A stretch of DNA of 64,000 nucleotides from Aneurinibacillus terranovensis DSM 18919 (GTDB taxonomy: Bacteria > Bacillota > Bacilli > Aneurinibacillales > Aneurinibacillaceae): NCBI RefSeq assembly GCF_000430625.1, contig NZ_AUMJ01000009.1:1-64000 (forward strand). Reading direction: 5' to 3'. The notes under the pieces are model-generated. The model saw only the letters and a program-made list of their open reading frames with translations. It was not told where the DNA came from and made no database searches. The translations under genes were made by a program, and so were the position numbers. Positions within the stretch are counted from its first letter, which is position 1. The number at the start of each line of letters is the position of its first letter. Below, piece by piece: positions 5,332 through 16,132 of the stretch.

Positions 5332-6531
5332 CTATATAATATTCTTTTTTTCTAAATCATTTATTTCTGCTTCAGTCAATCCTAACATTTTTTGAAGAAC
5401 CTCATGATTATGTTCTCCCAGCTCAGGAGCAATGCTTCGGATGCTCCCAGGTGTTTTTTCAAACTTTGGCACAATCCCTGGCACTTTGATCTCCCCCAAT
5501 CTTGGATGACTAACACTCACAATATTTTCTCTCGCTTTATATTGAGGATGTTCAAAAATATCTTTTATACTTAAGATAGGACTAACCGGAACGCCATGTT
5601 CGTCGAGTTTTTGTAATAACTCATCTCGATCTTTAGTACGTATCCAATCAGCAACAATCTTATTTGTCTCTTGATTGTTTTCCAGACGTTTTGAATTTGT
5701 ATAAAATTTTTCATCTGACAGCATATCTTCCCGATTCATTGCCTTGGCTAATCGATTAAATGTAGAGTCGGTGCTTGTCACCAATACAATCCAATGATTG
5801 TCTTTCGTTAAAAACGTGCCTGATGGACTGGAATGCCCATTTAAACCAGGTGCTCTTTCCCTTACCTTACCGAGTTGGTCGTATTCGGCGACCAGAAACT
5901 CCATCATTCGGAATACGGTTTCATATAGGCCTATATCCACCATCTGTCCACTGCCATCCTGATTCGTATCCCGGTAATAAATAGCGGTTACGGCAGCAAA
6001 CGCTACGTAAATCCCTGTAATATAATCAGTCAGAGAAAAAGAAGGACTAACAGGATGCCTATCAGTAAAACCTTGAAGATACGTAAATCCGCTAAATGCC
6101 GTAGCCGGCGTTCCAAAGCCCGCTTTTTCTCGATAAGGACCCGTCTGGCCGTAGCCAGAAACACGAACCATAACTAGATTGGGGTTATCCTTTTTCAGTT
6201 CCTCATATCCGGCACCCCATTTTTCTAACGTTCCAGGCCTAAAGTTTTCAATGACAATATCAACTTGCGAAGCTAGTTTCTTAAAAATTTCGACGCCCTC
6301 TGGTGTATGCAGATCTAATGTAACTGATTTTTTATTTCTAGATAATCCGGGCCAGCGAAGCGGTTCACCATCCCGAAAAGGTCCTACAGTCCGTAGGGTG
6401 TCCCCCTTTCCCGGCATCTCAATTTTAATAATCTCCGCTCCGAAGTCCCCAAGTAATACTGCCCCAAAAGGAGCAGCAATCATGGTGGAAACATCGAGTA
6501 TTTTTATCCCTTCTAATGGCAATTGTTTCAT
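5332..6531 (-). CDS. CaiB/BaiF family (class III) CoA-transferase
   Basis: 399 residues, the usual family length. The N-terminus GIKILDVSTMIAAPFGA, the NKKSVTLDL and IENFRPGTLEKWG blocks, and SLTDYITGIYVA with the conserved catalytic Asp (LTDY) identify it. Class III enzymes move CoA between carboxylic acids through an aspartyl-CoA thioester; members act on oxalate, carnitine, succinate/hydroxy acids and arylsuccinates. It is the last gene of the operon, 22 bp behind the ThDP gene. Coupled to that enzyme it could form or recycle a 2-hydroxyacyl-CoA or formyl-CoA; this is inference. Confidence 0.88.
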   Translation of the reverse strand: MKQLPLEGIKILDVSTMIAAPFGAVLLGDFGAEIIKIEMPGKGDTLRTVGPFRDGEPLRWPGLSRNKKSVTLDLHTPEGVEIFKKLASQVDIVIENFRPGTLEKWGAGYEELKKDNPNLVMVRVSGYGQTGPYREKAGFGTPATAFSGFTYLQGFTDRHPVSPSFSLTDYITGIYVAFAAVTAIYYRDTNQDGSGQMVDIGLYETVFRMMEFLVAEYDQLGKVRERAPGLNGHSSPSGTFLTKDNHWIVLVTSTDSTFNRLAKAMNREDMLSDEKFYTNSKRLENNQETNKIVADWIRTKDRDELLQKLDEHGVPVSPILSIKDIFEHPQYKARENIVSVSHPRLGEIKVPGIVPKFEKTPGSIRSIAPELGEHNHEVLQKMLGLTEAEINDLEKKNII

Positions 6532-6553
6532 TATGCTTTTTACCTCACTTTAC

Positions 6554-8311
6554 TTAGACACTTACATGAGACTTCTTTTCATTAGGTGAATAAATGTCAA
6601 GAATATTCCAATGTCCGGTAGTCGGAACCGGATTGTTTAGCATGCCGACGTCAATCACAACTGGTTTATTGGATTCAATTGCCCGTTTGAGCGCAGGCTT
6701 AAATTCTGCCGCGGATTCAATTTTGATGCCTTCTACACCGTACCCCCGGGCAATGGCGGCGAAATCCGGAGAATAGGCCTCGCCATCTTTCTTAAATACA
6801 GTGCCATACGTTGTATCGTAGTGGGCTTTTTGCAAACCAGCAATTGTACCAAACGCACCGTTGTTCATAATAACCCAGACAACAGGGATATTTTCTTCGA
6901 CAGCTGTAGCCAACACCGAAGGATTCTGCCCAAAACCGCCATCACCAACAAGGGAAACAACCACCCGGTCCGGTTGTGCCAGTTTGGCTCCTAAAGCGGC
7001 CGGAGCTCCAAATCCCATCGTACAAAAGCCGCCGGGCGTTAAAATGGTGCCTGATTCATATACAGGGAACTGCTGTCCAACACCATTCTTATTCCAGCCT
7101 ACATCGGTTGTAATATAAGCATCTTTCGGCAGTACTTCACGAACCTCTGCCAGGATGCGTTCCGGCTGCATGGGATACGAGTTGCTTGCAATATTCTGTT
7201 TATTGCTGTTCCTAAATTCTTCTCGATAAACGGCAATTTCCTGTTTTAGCTTCTCATTCTGCAATCCATTGGGCAGGATTTTCTTCGCTACGCGGTTCAA
7301 AACGGTTAATGCCTGCTTCAAATCAGCCACCGCACCGATTTCCACTGGGTAATTTCTTCCCATTTCGTTCGGGTCGATGTCAATATGAATTAATTTGGTG
7401 GGCGGGAAGTTGAAGGTGTATTTCGATTCCCAAGAACTCGAATCCGCTTCAGCAAAGCGAGTGCCTAACGCAAAAATATAGTCGGCCTGCTTGCATTTAT
7501 CATTAATAAATTTCGTGCCCCAGAACCCAGTCATCCCAAGCGTGAAGGGATGATCATCCGACACAGCCCCTTTGCCCATCAGCGAATAGGCCACAGGTAT
7601 ACTTAAACGGTCTACAAATTCCCTTAATTCTTCGGAAGCATTAGCGAGCATAATCCCGCCACCCACATAAAGAAGAGGATTCTTAGCGTTGATAAGCGTT
7701 TCAATGATTCTTGTTGCCGTTTCATCATCAATCGACGGTTTGTGTAACGTTTTCGTATGATGCCCCAGCTTTTCAAACAGAGCCACATCCACCTCTTTCG
7801 AGAAAATATCCATGGGTACAGAGACAAGCACTGGCCCCGGCCTTCCACTTTCCGCTAACTGGAACGCCTTCTCAATAATTTCAGGAAACAAATCCGCACG
7901 ATCTACGCGCCAGGCACGCTTTACAAATGGGCGATAGATTTCATATTGAGAGGCATCGGCATGCAAATTGATTTCCTGGTGTGGATGCTTTCCGTAATAG
8001 TGACTCGGGACATCACCGGCAATGACCACCATGGGAATGGAATCGAGCGCTGCGTTGGCTACGCCTGTCGCTGCGTTTGTTAATCCAGGGCCCAGGTGGC
8101 TCAACACCACTGCAGTCTGCTTCTTGGCACGGGCATATCCATCAGCGGCATGGGCAGCAATTTGTTCATGACGGACATTTATGAATTTAATAGGGCTATT
8201 ATCCAACGCTGACAATACAGCGATGTTGGTGTGTCCACAAAGACCAAAGATATGTTCGACCCCTCTGTTTTCGAGATACTTTACCAATTGATGAGAAATT
8301 AGGTCTTTCAT
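6554..8311 (-). CDS. Thiamine-diphosphate enzyme (acetolactate synthase / 2-hydroxyacyl-CoA lyase-like)
   Basis: 585 residues with the three-domain ThDP architecture. The N-terminal Pyr domain has the activating Glu in NVRHEQIAAHAADGYAR. A central nucleotide-fold domain carries GKGAVSDDHPF. The C-terminal PP domain has GDGGFGQNPSVLATAVEE and the closing NN of the metal/ThDP motif. Relatives include acetolactate synthase, glyoxylate carboligase, sulfoacetaldehyde acetyltransferase and oxalyl/2-hydroxyacyl-CoA lyases; I cannot pick one. There is no IlvN partner, which argues against biosynthetic acetolactate synthase. GAGGAGG stands seven bases before the start. Flanking CoA-transferase and aldehyde dehydrogenase genes fit a lyase that releases an aldehyde. 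Confidence 0.85.
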   Translation of the reverse strand: MKDLISHQLVKYLENRGVEHIFGLCGHTNIAVLSALDNSPIKFINVRHEQIAAHAADGYARAKKQTAVVLSHLGPGLTNAATGVANAALDSIPMVVIAGDVPSHYYGKHPHQEINLHADASQYEIYRPFVKRAWRVDRADLFPEIIEKAFQLAESGRPGPVLVSVPMDIFSKEVDVALFEKLGHHTKTLHKPSIDDETATRIIETLINAKNPLLYVGGGIMLANASEELREFVDRLSIPVAYSLMGKGAVSDDHPFTLGMTGFWGTKFINDKCKQADYIFALGTRFAEADSSSWESKYTFNFPPTKLIHIDIDPNEMGRNYPVEIGAVADLKQALTVLNRVAKKILPNGLQNEKLKQEIAVYREEFRNSNKQNIASNSYPMQPERILAEVREVLPKDAYITTDVGWNKNGVGQQFPVYESGTILTPGGFCTMGFGAPAALGAKLAQPDRVVVSLVGDGGFGQNPSVLATAVEENIPVVWVIMNNGAFGTIAGLQKAHYDTTYGTVFKKDGEAYSPDFAAIARGYGVEGIKIESAAEFKPALKRAIESNKPVVIDVGMLNNPVPTTGHWNILDIYSPNEKKSHVSV

Positions 8312-8353
8312 TTTTGAGCCTCCTCATTAAAATTTAAACTTGAAGAAAATAGA

Positions 8354-9808
8354 TTAATTAGGAAATTGAAATACGATCATTTTCGTTTCCGTCATATCTT
8401 CTACAGCATAACGAGGACCTTCACGTCCAATCCCACTGTTCTTCACTCCACCGTATGGCCAATGATCCAGTCTAAAATTAGATGTTCCATTAAGTACTAC
8501 GCCTCCTACTTCCAGTGCATGGGCAACCTTATAAGCCAGATCCATCCGGTTCGTAAACAAACCCGCTTGAAGACCAAAGGAGGAATCATTTGTTTCTTTA
8601 ATCGCTTCCTCAATGGTTTCGTAAGGAATGATGCTCACAATGGGCCCAAAAACTTCCTGACAAACAACTTTACTATGCTTAGGCGGATTTAATAGGACAG
8701 TGGGCTCCACTGTTGCTCCATTTCTATGGCCGCCATGCACCAGTTCTGCACCTAAATGAATCGATTCTTCAATCCATTCCATGATCCGTTGCGCTGCATT
8801 CGTATCTACCAAACAACCAACATCGGTATCCGGAAGAAGAGGATCGCCAATTTTTAATTTTGATACTTGTTTTTTTAGAAGGTCCGTAAATGCTGGTACC
8901 ACAGATTGATGTACGTAAATTCGTTGTACAGAAATGCAGCTCTGCCCCGAATTGCTAAAGCCTGTTTTTGCACACATGGCTGCAGCACGATCTAAATCCG
9001 CGTCTTCATGGATAATCGTCGAGGCGTTTCCGCCCAATTCAAGCAATACTTTTTTCATACCGGCCAATTCACATATATTTCTTCCGGCAGAAACACCGCC
9101 CGTAAAGGATATGATATTCACGCGCTCATCTTTCACAATTCGCTGTCCGATTTCCACTCCGCCCAGGACCATGTTGATAGCGCTATCAGGAAATCCTGCT
9201 CTTAGCAACAATTTCAAAAGTTCAGTCGCTATGAGAGCTGTTTGCGGGGCAGGTTTTAATACCAGGCTGTTTCCAGCGGCAAATGCGGGGCCAACCTTAT
9301 GGCAAACAAGGTTCAATGGCGCATTAAAGGGTGTAATGGCGCCCACCACACCGACCGGAACACGAAATGTGGCAGCAATGGCCCTGGTTCCTCTTTCTGA
9401 GGCATCTCCCGGCAGTGTTTCACCGAACAATCTTTTCGCTTCTTCGGCAGATTGTTCTAGTGTTTCAATGGAACGTGATACTTCATCCCGTGTGTTCTTT
9501 AATGGTTTGCCTAATTCAAGAGAAATTAGCGCAGCAAACTTCTCTTTTTCCTCTTCTAGTAATGAGGCAGCACTTTTTAAGATTTTTGCCCGCTTATTTG
9601 ATGGAATACTTGCAATTTCCTTTTTAGCAGCATGCGCGGAAGCCAGTGCATGCTCAACATCCTCTTTTGTTGCCAAAAATTGCTCTCCAATTACTTCGCC
9701 AGAATATGGGCTTTTTATCTGAAGAGTTTCCCGGTCCGAGGAAATCCATTTTCCGTTAATATAAGGCTGCGCCTGCTTCATGATCTGTTCCACCTGCTTT
9801 ATACTCAT
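8354..9808 (-). CDS. NAD(P)-dependent aldehyde dehydrogenase
   Basis: 484 residues, typical of the ALDH superfamily. ITPFNAPLNLVCHKVGPA and FTGGVSAGRNI form the cofactor region, the general base Glu is in LELGGNAS, and the nucleophile Cys is in NSGQSCISVQR. The C-terminal PYGGVKNSGIGREG is standard. It resembles non-acylating lactaldehyde, glycolaldehyde and succinate-semialdehyde dehydrogenases. Its ATG overlaps the stop of the citrate-synthase-like gene (ATGA), so translation is coupled. It presumably oxidises the aldehyde made by the ThDP enzyme encoded just downstream. Confidence 0.9.
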   Translation of the reverse strand: MSIKQVEQIMKQAQPYINGKWISSDRETLQIKSPYSGEVIGEQFLATKEDVEHALASAHAAKKEIASIPSNKRAKILKSAASLLEEEKEKFAALISLELGKPLKNTRDEVSRSIETLEQSAEEAKRLFGETLPGDASERGTRAIAATFRVPVGVVGAITPFNAPLNLVCHKVGPAFAAGNSLVLKPAPQTALIATELLKLLLRAGFPDSAINMVLGGVEIGQRIVKDERVNIISFTGGVSAGRNICELAGMKKVLLELGGNASTIIHEDADLDRAAAMCAKTGFSNSGQSCISVQRIYVHQSVVPAFTDLLKKQVSKLKIGDPLLPDTDVGCLVDTNAAQRIMEWIEESIHLGAELVHGGHRNGATVEPTVLLNPPKHSKVVCQEVFGPIVSIIPYETIEEAIKETNDSSFGLQAGLFTNRMDLAYKVAHALEVGGVVLNGTSNFRLDHWPYGGVKNSGIGREGPRYAVEDMTETKMIVFQFPN

Positions 9809-10653
9809 ACTCTCTCACCCTCTTTTTCTAAGTGCCTGATAGAAGGGCCAGAATAGTGAACCAAATCATCCCGGTTTGGACAAGGCCCTTTAATTAATAC
9901 GCCATTTTTGAGCTCTTCAAAAGCGTGTGCCACAATTCCCATTCCACGTGACAAGGCGAATACTCCTTTTGCAGCTTCTGCTGGAATTGCTAACTCACAC
10001 TGAATAGCAGCGGATACCCCATCTACATTCATTGTCATTCTCTTCTTTTTCTTTTCTTCCAGAATGGCTCTATACTCTTCGGCGATTCTCAAGTACTGAC
10101 CTGAGATTTCACCTTCCTCTATTAACGATTGTGCCAGATGATAGAGCCTTGTTACACGTGGATCATCATCGTGCAGTTGGTGACCAAATCCCGGCAATTT
10201 TTCTTTGTCCCTTTGTAACCGATCAAATTGTTCCCTAGCTACAAGTGTTATATTGCCCCCATCGCCCGCAAGTTCGTTCGTTGCATAAAATAATTTCATT
10301 GCTTTTTCAGCGGCACCTCCATGTATGTCCCCTAGTACATTGATTCCAGTAGCTACACAGGAATTAAAGGAAATCCCGCATGTGGCTGCCATTCTTGCCG
10401 CTGCAATGGAAGGTGCACGAGGTCCATGATCCGCTCCTGCAACAAGAACGCTTTCAAACAAACGTGCTTTCTTTTCACTAAGGATGTCTCCACACAAGAG
10501 AAAATAGAGCATTTGACTGTACGAGAAGTTTCCAATTAACTCTTCAATTGGATATCCTCTTATTATGATTTCATTTTTCTTAATATTGCTGATAGATGTA
10601 TCCCACCAAACAGTTCCGTTAGAATACGCTTCCAGAGCACTTCTTCCTTCCAT
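9805..10653 (-). CDS. Short citrate synthase / citryl-CoA lyase-like protein
   Basis: 282 residues, well below the 370-430 of ordinary citrate synthases. The catalytic elements are nonetheless visible: His in GDIHGGAAEKAM, His in LPGFGHQLHDDDPR and Asp in MNVDGVSAAIQ. The large N-terminal helical section is reduced, as in proteins annotated as citryl-CoA lyases. The expected chemistry is Claisen condensation or cleavage of an acyl-CoA with a 2-oxo acid. The start at ATG 10653 is set by GGAGG six bases upstream; the longer frame has no such site. It overlaps the aldehyde dehydrogenase gene by four bases. Confidence 0.8.
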   Translation of the reverse strand: MEGRSALEAYSNGTVWWDTSISNIKKNEIIIRGYPIEELIGNFSYSQMLYFLLCGDILSEKKARLFESVLVAGADHGPRAPSIAAARMAATCGISFNSCVATGINVLGDIHGGAAEKAMKLFYATNELAGDGGNITLVAREQFDRLQRDKEKLPGFGHQLHDDDPRVTRLYHLAQSLIEEGEISGQYLRIAEEYRAILEEKKKKRMTMNVDGVSAAIQCELAIPAEAAKGVFALSRGMGIVAHAFEELKNGVLIKGPCPNRDDLVHYSGPSIRHLEKEGERV

Positions 10654-10720
10654 AATGATCCTCCTTGAATAATTAGCCAATTTGATTGATACGCTTGCCT
10701 TTTTTAAAATTCATACAGGA

Positions 10721-11158
10721 TCAGTCTATCGCCGCAACGGCTGCTCTCAGGCCAAGGAGGTAGCTGTCCACCCCAAATCCGCAGATTTGACCCTTCACAA
10801 TTTCAGCAAACACAGAATGATGCCTAAACTCTTCCCTTGCGTGAATATTGGACATATGAATCTCAACAATGGGAACCGTGAGAATCGCCAGGGCATCCCG
10901 TATACCATAACTATAATGCGTCCATGCACCGGCATTGATGATAACGGCATCCTTATTCTCGATAAATGCCTGATGAATCCTTTCACACATTTCGCCTTCA
11001 TGATTGGTGTGAAAGGTCTCTACCTCCACACCTAGCTCATTTGCAAGATGATTTAGTTGCTCGTTGATCTGACTAAGAGTGATCGTGCCATATTGTACAG
11101 GATCCCTCTTCCCAAACATATTGTGATTGATTCCGTGCAGCATAAGAATCTTTTTCAT
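10721..11158 (-). CDS. Type II 3-dehydroquinate dehydratase-like protein
   Basis: 145 residues, normal AroQ length. Recognisable family blocks are RDPVQYGTITLSQI (catalytic Arg/Tyr pair), NAGAWTHYSYGIRDAL (normally NPGAYTHTS), and VEIHMSNIHAREEFRHHS (catalytic His and substrate-binding residues). The N-terminal LHGINHNMFGKR differs from the usual LNLLG. Type II enzymes eliminate water from 3-dehydroquinate in the shikimate or quinate pathways. Because it sits in a catabolic operon with CoA and ThDP enzymes, it may instead dehydrate a related hydroxy acid. AGGAGG precedes the start. Confidence 0.8.
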   Translation of the reverse strand: MKKILMLHGINHNMFGKRDPVQYGTITLSQINEQLNHLANELGVEVETFHTNHEGEMCERIHQAFIENKDAVIINAGAWTHYSYGIRDALAILTVPIVEIHMSNIHAREEFRHHSVFAEIVKGQICGFGVDSYLLGLRAAVAAID

Positions 11159-11252
11159 ATAATCTCCTCCTACACTTTAAAAAGCTGAGTTTCCCTTGAT
11201 TTTATGGCAATAAATATCTTGTGAACAGAAACAACCTTTATATTTAAACATC

Positions 11253-12095
11253 CTACAAACCAGAGATATTTTGCATGCGCGGGTGAGAAGCGAGATAGTC
11301 CTTTGCCGTTTGCAAGCAGCGCCGCGCAAATTCCTCATACCCTAATTCCTGAGCACGCTTGACGTTTGGCAGCTCAATTGAACAGGGAATTTCAGGGAGT
11401 CGGTTCACGATACTCGCAACATCAATACCGTCTTCACTTAAATACAAGCGTTCCTCACGAAGGATACGGGTCATCTCTTGTTTCCAGGGCGGAATTTCCG
11501 CTGGTGCATTGCACAGGTGGAGATAGCGGAACCACTCGCGCGGCACCATGTCCAGATCCTCAACCTTGTCCCTGGAGCGATGGAAATGATGTACATCGAT
11601 CATAAGACCGGCATTTTCCCGCTTTGCGGTGCGAAGAACGTCAAGTGCACCTGCAAGGTTGTATACACTGGCAATAGGGACGAACTCCAGTTCAACCGTC
11701 AGTCCGAACGGTTTGGCCAGATCACAAAGCTCGGCAAAACGTTCGATAGCAAAATTGCGATCGTCCGTCCAGATGCTACTAAGAACATGGCGTCCGCCAA
11801 GTTCCGCCGCGACTTCCATAGCGGGCACATAACGTTTCGGATCAACGCCGTCATAGATGCGTGCCAGTTCGATGTCGAGCAGCCTGACCCCCGTCTCATC
11901 AAGCGCCGTTTTAGTTTGCTTCAGCATCTCTTTGTTTTCGGCCAATCCGTAGTTGGGCTCACCGGGCAGACCCATGTAAATGAGGCGAAAGCTGACGAAA
12001 TCATAGCCAGCCCGCGCGGCAATGTAAGTCTGTTCGGGCGGTGGACACCCAAGCACTGTAAGGTGGGCTAGAGAAAATTGTCTTTTCATCTTCAT
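11253..12095 (-). CDS. Sugar phosphate isomerase/epimerase-like TIM-barrel protein
   Basis: About 280 residues of the xylose-isomerase-like (AP endonuclease 2) superfamily. The metal-site pattern is visible: Glu in LDIELARIYDG, Glu in TVELEFVPIASVYN, Asp-His in MIDVHHFHRSRD, and a late Glu in CSIELPN. Relatives include IolE/IolI, tagatose epimerases and 3-dehydroshikimate dehydratases (AsbF/QuiC type). The latter are notable beside a dehydroquinase-like gene. I start at ATG 12095, ten bases after GGAGG, rather than the upstream ATG, which precedes that site. It is the first gene of the operon. Confidence 0.75.
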   Translation of the reverse strand: MKMKRQFSLAHLTVLGCPPPEQTYIAARAGYDFVSFRLIYMGLPGEPNYGLAENKEMLKQTKTALDETGVRLLDIELARIYDGVDPKRYVPAMEVAAELGGRHVLSSIWTDDRNFAIERFAELCDLAKPFGLTVELEFVPIASVYNLAGALDVLRTAKRENAGLMIDVHHFHRSRDKVEDLDMVPREWFRYLHLCNAPAEIPPWKQEMTRILREERLYLSEDGIDVASIVNRLPEIPCSIELPNVKRAQELGYEEFARRCLQTAKDYLASHPRMQNISGL

Positions 12096-12295
12096 CTTCT
12101 TTATTCCTCCAATCATGCGGTGATACTATACGATTAACGTCCGTCATTAGCCCTTAAAATGAAAGGGATTACATTCCTTAAAATAAGATTGTTAAACATC
12201 TTCAACACTCGTTTGATTGGGAGTGATGCATTGTATAACCTTTTTTGAATACCTACTCTTTTCTGAATTATAATTCGTTTTTATCTATTAATAAA

Positions 12296-12720: not shown

Positions 12721-13075
12721 AATCGAGTAGGAGAGGGCGGTGAACCCTCGTCCTCTCACACCACCGTACGTACCGTTCGGTATACGGCGGTTCATTAAGT
12801 ACTCCGTAAAGAGTGATATCGTTCTGCCAGGCTTTTCAGTTGACACGATTCGAAGAATCGTTTATCCAACGTTCTGTGTAATACAGGACTTTTGGAGATA
12901 CGCCAGTATCCCTTACGGGAATTTCCCCATTCATAGGCTTTTCCTTTAGGGACTCCTAAAGCGATGAGCCTTTTTACTTTTGTGCGGGGAAGCTTCCATT
13001 GTTTCCACAAGCACATTCGCAGTCGTCTGCGAATCCACTCATCAAATCGCCAGGTTTCAAACCTGGCGAGAGAGA
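12721..13075 (-). mobile_element. 5'-truncated group II intron
   Basis: Minus strand. Bases 12793-12759 read GAACCGCCGTATACC, then a short loop, then GGTACGTACGGTGGTG, the bulged hairpin of intron domain V. Domain VI follows (GAGGACGAGGGTTC with CACCGCCCTCTCCTACTC), with the intron 3' end at about 12721. Upstream is the C-terminal end of the intron-encoded maturase. The reverse transcriptase, domains I-III and the 5' splice site are missing, so the element is dead. A perfect 21-bp palindrome (13048-13068) sits at the truncated edge. Confidence 0.85.
12795..13073 (-). pseudogene. Group II intron reverse transcriptase/maturase, C-terminal fragment
   Basis: The residues from FDEWIRRRLRMCLWKQWK through AYEWGNSRKGYWRISKSPVL to the stop match the end of LtrA-type maturases (domain X and the following DNA-binding part). 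Only about 85 residues of some 420 remain; RT motifs 1-7, including YADD, are absent. The first few codons upstream of FDEW do not look like maturase and probably mark the deletion point. Confidence 0.85.
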
Positions 13076-13104
13076 GTAACATTCTTGATTTTCTGATAAA
13101 CGGA

Positions 13105-13912: not shown

Positions 13913-15745
13913 CTAATGCACCGTCAAGCTCTTGGCAAGGTTGCGGGGGCGGTCGACGTCGTGACCGCGGACCGTTCCGGAGTAATATGCGAGAAGCTGC
14001 AGAGGAATCGCGGCGAGAACCGGCATTAAAAACGGGTGGGTAGACGGGATATACATCACCTCGTCAACGACTTCCCCTACCAGGCTGTCTCCGACGGTTG
14101 TGATTCCGATGACAAACGCGTCCCTAGCTTTTACTTCTTTAATATTGCTGATCGTCTTATCGAGCAGTTGATGCTGGGTTGCCAGCGCAATGACTGGAAC
14201 ACCCGGTGTGATGAGCGCCATCGTGCCATGCTTCATTTCGCCGGCTGCGTACGCATCCGCGTGGATATAGGCAACTTCCTGCAGTTTAAGCGCACCTTCC
14301 AGCGCCAGGACATAGTCCAACCCCCGGCCAATCAAAAAAATATGATCCTGGTCGTAAATAACCTGTGCGAACTGGTCGATTGCATCCTGGGTCATGATGA
14401 GGGTAGATTCCACATCCTGCTTCAACCTAGCGAGCGATTTAATAAGATCAGGAATTTGCGCACACCCGGTACCTCCCAACTTCTGTGCCAGCCAGATGGC
14501 AAGAGCGGTAAACACCGCCATTTGTGAAGTATATGCTTTAGTTGAGGCGACTGCCAGCTCGGGACCGGCCTTTGTGAAAACGGTACACTCTGCTTTACGG
14601 GAAATGGTACTGCCCGCCGTATTCGTAATGGCGATCGTGGAACACCCGTATTTTTTTGCCTCGCGCAGCGCTGACAGGGTATCTCCGGTCTCGCCGGATT
14701 GGCTGAGAAAAACAACGAGAGTATGCTCGTCAAGCTTCGGGTGTTCAGAAAGAAATTCAGACGAGAGGGAAACCGCGACAGGAATTCCCAGCAATTGCTC
14801 CATTACTCTTTTACCGATAATTCCGGAATGAAACGATGTCCCGCTTGCCACAATATCAATTTTACGCAGGTTTTGCACTTTTTCTTCGGACCATACCTCT
14901 TCTAACTCCGGGAGGTACACCATATCCTCTGACAGGCGGCCGGCTAACGTTTCTTCAATCGCTTTCGGCTGTTCAAAAATCTCTTTCAGCATGTAATGTT
15001 CATAATCATTGAGCATCACGTCCTGCGGGTTCAAATCAACGACGATCCGTTTCGGGATTAACACGTCTCCCGTTACCGTTTTAATCGAAACTTTCTCCGG
15101 GGTTAATATCGCCATTTCCCCATTTTTTATCGGGTAGAATTCACGTACATACGTGAGAATCGCGGGAATATCGGACGTAAGAAATGTCTCGCCTTTGCCA
15201 AACCCGAGAATAAGCGGATTATCCTGTGACACGGCAATAATGGTATCCGGACTGGCCTGGCTCATGATCGCCAAGGCAAACGTACCTTTTAACATCGGTA
15301 AAACAAGGCGGACCGTTTCTTCAAAATCGCCTGTATCATGCTGTTCCAGCAAATGGGGGATTACTTCCGTATCTGTTTCGGTTTTAAATATATGCCCCTC
15401 CTGCTCCAGTTCTTTTTTTAGCTGGGGGTAATTCTCAATAATTCCATTGTGGGCGACAATGAACCGTGCATCACATCCTGTTAACGGATGGGCGTTTATC
15501 GCGCACGGTTGGCCGTGAGTTGCCCAGCGGGTATGGCCGATTCCCAGTTGGCCACCCGGCACCGGCTCCCGCAGAAGCACGTCCCGCAAATCCTTTATGC
15601 GCCCTTTTGTTTTTCTTATTTCAACGCCTTCTAAATTAGAAATCGCAATACCCGCTGAATCGTAACCGCGATAATCCAGCCGGTCGAGACAGTCCAAAAG
15701 AATAGGCTGTGCCTTTCGTTTTCCCATAAATCCGACAATACCGCT
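13913..15745 (-). CDS. glmS: Glucosamine-6-phosphate synthase paralogue with Ser in place of the catalytic Cys
   Basis: About 610 residues: an N-terminal glutaminase domain (HTRWATHG, NGIIENY, TETDTEVI), then two SIS domains (LSQSGETGDT, ASTKAYTSQ) and the C-terminal PRNLAKSLTV. GlmS makes glucosamine-6-phosphate from fructose-6-phosphate and glutamine. Active enzymes begin Met-Cys-Gly-Ile-Val-Gly, where Cys1 is the glutaminase nucleophile. Here the start is TTG-AGC-GGT-ATT, giving Ser1; an alternative GTG twelve bases earlier also gives Ser at this site. GAGGTG precedes the TTG. No glmM is adjacent, and the roughly 30-nt leader leaves no room for a glmS ribozyme. It may be a paralogue using free ammonia. 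Confidence 0.88.
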   Translation of the reverse strand, partial: SGIVGFMGKRKAQPILLDCLDRLDYRGYDSAGIAISNLEGVEIRKTKGRIKDLRDVLLREPVPGGQLGIGHTRWATHGQPCAINAHPLTGCDARFIVAHNGIIENYPQLKKELEQEGHIFKTETDTEVIPHLLEQHDTGDFEETVRLVLPMLKGTFALAIMSQASPDTIIAVSQDNPLILGFGKGETFLTSDIPAILTYVREFYPIKNGEMAILTPEKVSIKTVTGDVLIPKRIVVDLNPQDVMLNDYEHYMLKEIFEQPKAIEETLAGRLSEDMVYLPELEEVWSEEKVQNLRKIDIVASGTSFHSGIIGKRVMEQLLGIPVAVSLSSEFLSEHPKLDEHTLVVFLSQSGETGDTLSALREAKKYGCSTIAITNTAGSTISRKAECTVFTKAGPELAVASTKAYTSQMAVFTALAIWLAQKLGGTGCAQIPDLIKSLARLKQDVESTLIMTQDAIDQFAQVIYDQDHIFLIGRGLDYVLALEGALKLQEVAYIHADAYAAGEMKHGTMALITPGVPVIALATQHQLLDKTISNIKEVKARDAFVIGITTVGDSLVGEVVDEVMYIPSTHPFLMPVLAAIPLQLLAYYSGTVRGHDVDRPRNLAKSLTVH

Positions 15746-15781
15746 CAAAAAGTTCACCTCGTTCTTATTCCCATTTCTTCT

Positions 15782-15787
15782 ATTATA
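15782..15787 (-). promoter_or_regulatory. Probable -10 element of the glmS-like gene
   Basis: The minus strand reads TATAAT 37 bases upstream of the TTG start. A -35 is not clear at the standard distance. This implies a leader of only about 30 nt. Confidence 0.4.
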
Positions 15788-15868: not shown

Positions 15869-16124
15869 GAGAAAAACTCGCGGGCGTTGCCGCTCGTCCT
15901 TTTTCTGCAGGGAAGCGAAACGGCCGCTTAGTGACCGGAAGGTCGGACCGACAAAACATCCGGGTACCTCAATGATGGAGACAATTGTCGGTCTGATCGA
16001 CCTTCCGGCCACACGCTCCACATTGAAAAAGCAACGTTCGGCACACTCCCGCGAGTTTTTCTCGGGTGACCAATGGAAGGAAAGTATATGTTGCTTTAAC
16101 ACTGTAAAGCAACATATACTTTCC
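15869..16124. repeat. Structured intergenic repeat, long copy with extra 85-nt module
   Basis: Same terminal inverted repeat as the copy at 1151 (15869-15884 and 16048-16063). The same trailing hairpin is present, here 20 bp and perfect (16079-16098 and 16105-16124). In the outermost pair a G-T in the first copy is G-C here, so pairing is kept. Relative to the short copy it carries 85 extra bases (15926-16010) between CGGCC direct repeats; these form their own long hairpin (ACCGGAAGGTCGGACCGACA and its near complement). It lies upstream of the glmS-like gene. Confidence 0.82.
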
Positions 16125-16132
16125 TTAACGGC

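Follow-up and report, generated by a model that had tools for sequence, protein, structure and literature searches.

We propose that the glmS-like gene of the window (the whole 64,000-nucleotide stretch from Aneurinibacillus terranovensis DSM 18919 that was analysed) encodes a functional GlcN6P synthase with the GlmS fold, in which a serine at position 1 (Ser1) would act as the nucleophile in place of the catalytic cysteine (Cys1). Judged from sequence comparison, this reading has about an even chance of being correct (roughly 0.5). We hold a little more tentatively that the gene represents a natural, repeatedly evolved class II amidotransferase with a Ser nucleophile, which would suffice as the sole GlmS of a cell and would be unaffected by inhibitors directed at Cys1. 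In descriptions of GlmS, Cys1 is the sole catalytic residue of the glutaminase site, and anticapsin, FMDP and DON-type inhibitors target it. A Ser1 lineage kept by selection would mean that the nucleophile of a class II amidotransferase is exchangeable in nature, or else that GlmS is able to evolve the use of ammonia; each of these outcomes contradicts a stated rule. It would also mean that a natural route exists around a cell-wall drug target. The Ser1 lineage is under selection, the Ser1 state was found twice independently and once as the sole copy, and thus the textbook catalytic rule may not hold there. Our search of the open-access literature found no description of a Ser1 GlmS.

The features of the gene are listed in Table 1. 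Its longest possible frame (13913–15757) opens with a GTG 9 nt upstream of the TTG; this GTG overlaps the Shine-Dalgarno sequence and would add MNF only, and the TTG at 15748 is likely to be the start. The product scored 705 bits over its full length against the NCBIfam glmS equivalog TIGR01135 (cut-off 418). It has the GATase and SIS domains, and its alignment with the E. coli GlmS structures runs from one end to the other. AlphaFold2, run on the single sequence only, gave a mean pLDDT of 35.5, too low to be of use; the fold was taken as fixed because the identity to solved GlmS is 41–43%.

Table 1. Features of the Ser1-type GlmS gene in the window.
Feature	Coordinates	Strand	Basis or remark
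Ser1-type GlmS gene	13913..15748	-	stop at 13913; product of 610 residues; glutaminase domain, residues 1-239; SIS/isomerase domain from about 241
Start codon TTG	15746..15748	-	read from sequence
AGC codon, Ser1 replacing catalytic Cys1	15743..15745	-	sequence; Ser in 19/19 orthologues
Shine-Dalgarno GAGGTG	15755..15760	-	six bases upstream of TTG start
HTRWATHG, Q-loop and glutamine-binding residues 71-78	15512..15535	-	alignment; roles from PMC7000685
HNG (E. coli 97-99), oxyanion residues	15443..15451	-	alignment
Equivalents of K485-E488 (isomerase catalysis), clade-specific Q for K487	14276..14287	-	alignment
C-tail LAKSLTVH, ammonia-channel segment	13916..13939	-	alignment; K603 and T606 kept, V605 to L
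TATAAT, -10-like box	15782..15787	-	39 nt upstream of start; same box in 14/19 orthologues

Orthologues were sought in related whole genomes. In the class sample of 398 genomes, the Ser1 type was present in 19, namely all 15 sampled genomes of the order and four genomes from three further families in the class. The set of 19 includes the window protein, to which the 18 others are 64–76% identical. Ser directly follows the start codon in every one of them (ATG, GTG or TTG immediately preceding AGY; 13 AGT and 6 AGC), and Ala, Gly or Thr never occurs at this position. Gly, Asn, Thr or a reversion to Cys lies one mutation away from AGC/AGT, and most pairs are at or close to saturation at their synonymous sites. 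A sequence-only reading of this DNA had correctly noticed the AGC codon after the start and had named a private mutation among the outcomes that would refute it. Because all 19 orthologues carry Ser, a private mutation, a sequencing error and chance can be excluded.

The other 37 GlmS proteins compared all have Cys1 and are at most 53% identical. The tree (IQ-TREE) placed the Ser1 set in one clade with support of 100/100, on a long stem (0.96 changes per site). No clade members were found outside the class in the phylum sample. A search of genome contigs with the window protein alone returned only three distant Cys-type relatives, tblastn against plasmids gave no relative above 60% identity, and in viral contigs the Ser1 pattern gave nothing beyond chance matches.

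Residue roles were taken from PMC7000685 and PMC9272926, with E. coli numbering. The glutamine pocket and oxyanion residues expected of GlmS are present in the window protein, and the Cys nucleophile at position 1 that characterizes GlmS and class II Ntn amidotransferases is absent. Across the clade, R26, R73, W74, H86, N98, G99 and D123 are kept in 19/19 sequences and H97 is also invariant; T76 and H77 are each kept in 18/19, with one deviating member at each position (G290, G019). T72 and T606 are kept among the clade rows listed, and the isomerase residues K485, E488, H504 and K603 in all 19. The statement in the sequence-only reading that all other motifs are intact therefore stands for the pocket and the isomerase catalytic residues; it does not extend to a set of changes that are fixed in the clade at columns invariant or nearly invariant elsewhere. 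Besides C1S, these are H88L, S120T, R/K173S, S176N, C300S/N, K487Q, S490A, E495D and V605L/M.

Of the columns invariant in Cys-type GlmS, 34/46 (74%) in the glutaminase domain are also invariant in the clade, versus 48/69 (70%) in the isomerase domain; thus it is not the glutaminase half that is relaxed. Its dN/dS is about 0.05 for the pairs in which dS could be estimated, like that of canonical GlmS. Purifying selection acts on the glutaminase domain as strongly as it does in canonical GlmS. The clade has no invariant cysteine column and so offers no obvious stand-in cysteine.

One genome of the clade (G011; 99% complete; loci L079, L117 and L118) has neither a glmS ribozyme nor a Cys1 GlmS, and its sole GlmS is of the Ser1 type. 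The rocF-sigW-rsiW-cdaA-cdaR-glmM block of G011 is preserved in full in the interior of a 703-kb contig. After glmM, other genes follow in G011; the ribozyme and glmS follow in G013, G012 and the genome of the window (G000). Judging from this arrangement, G011 has lost the ribozyme and the canonical glmS behind glmM. G011 also has NagB and a second glmM. In principle, reverse action of NagB or the import of amino sugars could replace GlmS there, and G011 is therefore strong, not final, evidence for GlcN6P synthesis by the Ser1 type.

A DNA-pattern search for Ser1 starts in 398 genomes of the phylum gave 15 hits (two with a reversed control pattern), and it revealed Ser1 GlmS in a further family, f86 (loci L143, L144, L145, L147–L149 and L159). 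In G589, G703 and G659, Ser1 is encoded by AGC and the gene, a glmS preceded by the ribozyme, follows cdaA-cdaR-glmM directly; in G723 it is encoded by TCT in a partial gene at a contig end. The sister genera have Cys1. The four f86 sequences were nested in Cys GlmS, far from the clade of the window, and thus two separate Cys-to-Ser changes are needed. All four carry R26H, three carry T72I/W74L, and the two complete sequences carry A602T, so the handling of ammonia may differ in f86. The f86 genomes are fragmented (84–95% complete); no other GlmS was seen in G589, and G703 has a second copy with Cys1.

In the mechanism that we propose, removal of Met would leave Ser1 with a free alpha-amino group. 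Glutamine would be held by R73, T76, H77, H86 and D123, with N98 and G99 as the oxyanion hole. Ser1 would then make its attack on the amide of glutamine in the manner of the N-terminal Ser of other Ntn hydrolases, and ammonia would move through the channel of W74 and the C-tail to fructose-6-phosphate in a normally equipped isomerase site. Ser1 would thus hydrolyse glutamine and the product would be GlcN6P.

A plausible benefit would be that aldehydes, oxidants and glutamine-analogue antibiotics, which attack Cys1, leave the enzyme unaffected, and Ser1 may perhaps trade speed for resistance to thiol-reactive agents. This idea is based on published chemistry and on the loss in the clade of C300, a second active-site cysteine. 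N-terminal Ser forms only unstable adducts with aldehydes, whereas N-terminal Cys forms stable thiazolidines (PMC10866355), and Cys1 of GlmS is alkylated by anticapsin and FMDP (PMC9272926). Engineered Cys-to-Ser change in E. coli PurF left glutamine activity undetectable while ammonia was still used, and function was lost likewise in AsnB (PMC3261824). A simple substitution is therefore not enough, and a Ser nucleophile adapted with concerted changes elsewhere would be the most economical reading.

The conservation of Ser1, the pocket and the isomerase residues, the selection, the sole copy in G011 and the second origin all count for a Ser nucleophile. The main rival, which we consider unlikely, is an ammonia-dependent GlcN6P synthase that has lost glutaminase chemistry; free ammonia would enter the channel, and the pocket would only gate or sense. 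Engineered Cys1Ser class II amidotransferases do retain ammonia-dependent activity (PMC3261824), and the changes C300S/N and V605L/M in the clade of the window, which affect channel or near-site positions, might alter how ammonia is handled. In f86, the loss of W74, T72 and R26 in most members is a better fit to ammonia use, and W74L and A602T are changes of channel residues. However, canonical GlmS reportedly does not use ammonia (PMC9272926), and a strict Ser with the whole pocket at a dN/dS of about 0.05 is unexpected if glutamine is irrelevant. For the same reasons (a position that is always Ser, strong selection on a pocket that is kept, and a Ser1 gene as the one glmS in G011), the suggestion of the sequence-only reading that glutaminase activity is simply abolished is poorly supported.

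It is more unlikely still that the protein is not a GlcN6P synthase in vivo, serving instead to isomerize, to deaminate GlcN6P, to act on a different sugar phosphate or to regulate Cys1 GlmS as a partner. A canonical copy does stand alongside in 18/19 genomes, GFAT is known to show isomerase activity alone (PMC7948480), and K487Q, S490A and E495D are fixed near the sugar site. Yet K485, E488, H504 and K603 are kept throughout, G011 has no Cys1 partner or other GlmS, and conserved catabolic neighbours are lacking. The independent f86 genes, moreover, lie under a GlcN6P-sensing ribozyme, which points to GlcN6P as the product there. A decaying or mis-sequenced gene, for which the missing catalytic Cys alone speaks, has a negligible chance: it is refuted by orthologues that are full-length in all 19 genomes, with Ser in every one and a dN/dS of about 0.05.

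Several known systems resemble the Ser1 type in part. In Ser-type Ntn hydrolases such as penicillin G acylase, the nucleophile is an N-terminal Ser exposed by autoproteolysis, and these enzymes are not glutamine amidotransferases; they share the superfold with Ser1 GlmS, in which Ser stands directly after Met. Beta-lactam synthetase is a natural relative of class II amidotransferases that lacks Cys1 and needs no ammonia donor; its glutamine site has decayed, whereas that of the Ser1 clade is kept. GlmS/GFAT (TIGR01135; 1JXA, 4AMV) agrees with the window protein in the full-length two-domain structure, an identity of about 41–43%, and the pocket and isomerase residues; the window protein differs in Ser1, C300S/N, K487Q and V605L and in the lack of a ribozyme and of a glmM link. 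The C1A crystal form of E. coli GlmS (3OOJ) is likewise an otherwise intact enzyme without the Cys1 nucleophile, but its Ala is engineered and offers no potential nucleophile, whereas the window protein belongs to a natural lineage. Crenarchaeal PurF' is a natural class II paralogue without N-terminal Cys beside a normal copy; many of these carry Ala or Val and ammonia use has been suggested (PMC3261824), in contrast to the invariant Ser and kept pocket of the Ser1 clade.

An Rfam search of the window found no glmS ribozyme (RF00234), and the genes adjoining the Ser1 gene are not glmM, both as the sequence-only reading had said. That reading had also called for the other glmS of the genome, which lies on contig C61 (43% identity, Cys1). 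This copy has the ribozyme and adjoins glmM, as is typical of ribozyme-controlled glmS in Bacillota; the Ser1 gene has neither. The ribozyme was found in 18/19 genomes with the Ser1 gene and, where compared, precedes the Cys1 copy adjoining glmM. A TATAAT lies 36–44 nt before the start in 14/19 orthologues (shuffle mean 0.7, maximum 4), and the leader is therefore too short for a glmS ribozyme. Driven by a promoter of its own and lacking the GlcN6P ribozyme, the Ser1 gene would be a constitutive second supply, and the only one in G011.

No conserved neighbourhood of the Ser1 gene was found among 18 orthologues, so the neighbours give no functional clue, and pairing with another glutaminase, as once suggested, is unsupported. 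A self-resistance gene within an antibiotic cluster was also considered and dropped, since the Ser1 gene stands alone and belongs to the core genes of the order.

Some other features of the window were observed. A 195-nt foldback with long inverted arms (15869–16063; RNA MFE −107 kcal/mol, z −8.65), possibly a miniature mobile element, is flanked by the glmS-like gene and a DJ-1/PfpI gene, and a perfect 22-nt inverted repeat comes after it (16077–16126). On the minus strand, a short frame (12795–13082) resembles by eye the C-terminus of a group II intron reverse transcriptase and is a likely remnant. A catabolic run on the same strand (5332–12116) encodes a CoA-transferase III, a TPP enzyme, an aldehyde dehydrogenase, a citrate-synthase-like protein, a class II dehydroquinase and a TIM-barrel isomerase. 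Elsewhere in the same genome, a nagB-like frame (G000:C3:101079-101810) contains one internal TAA.
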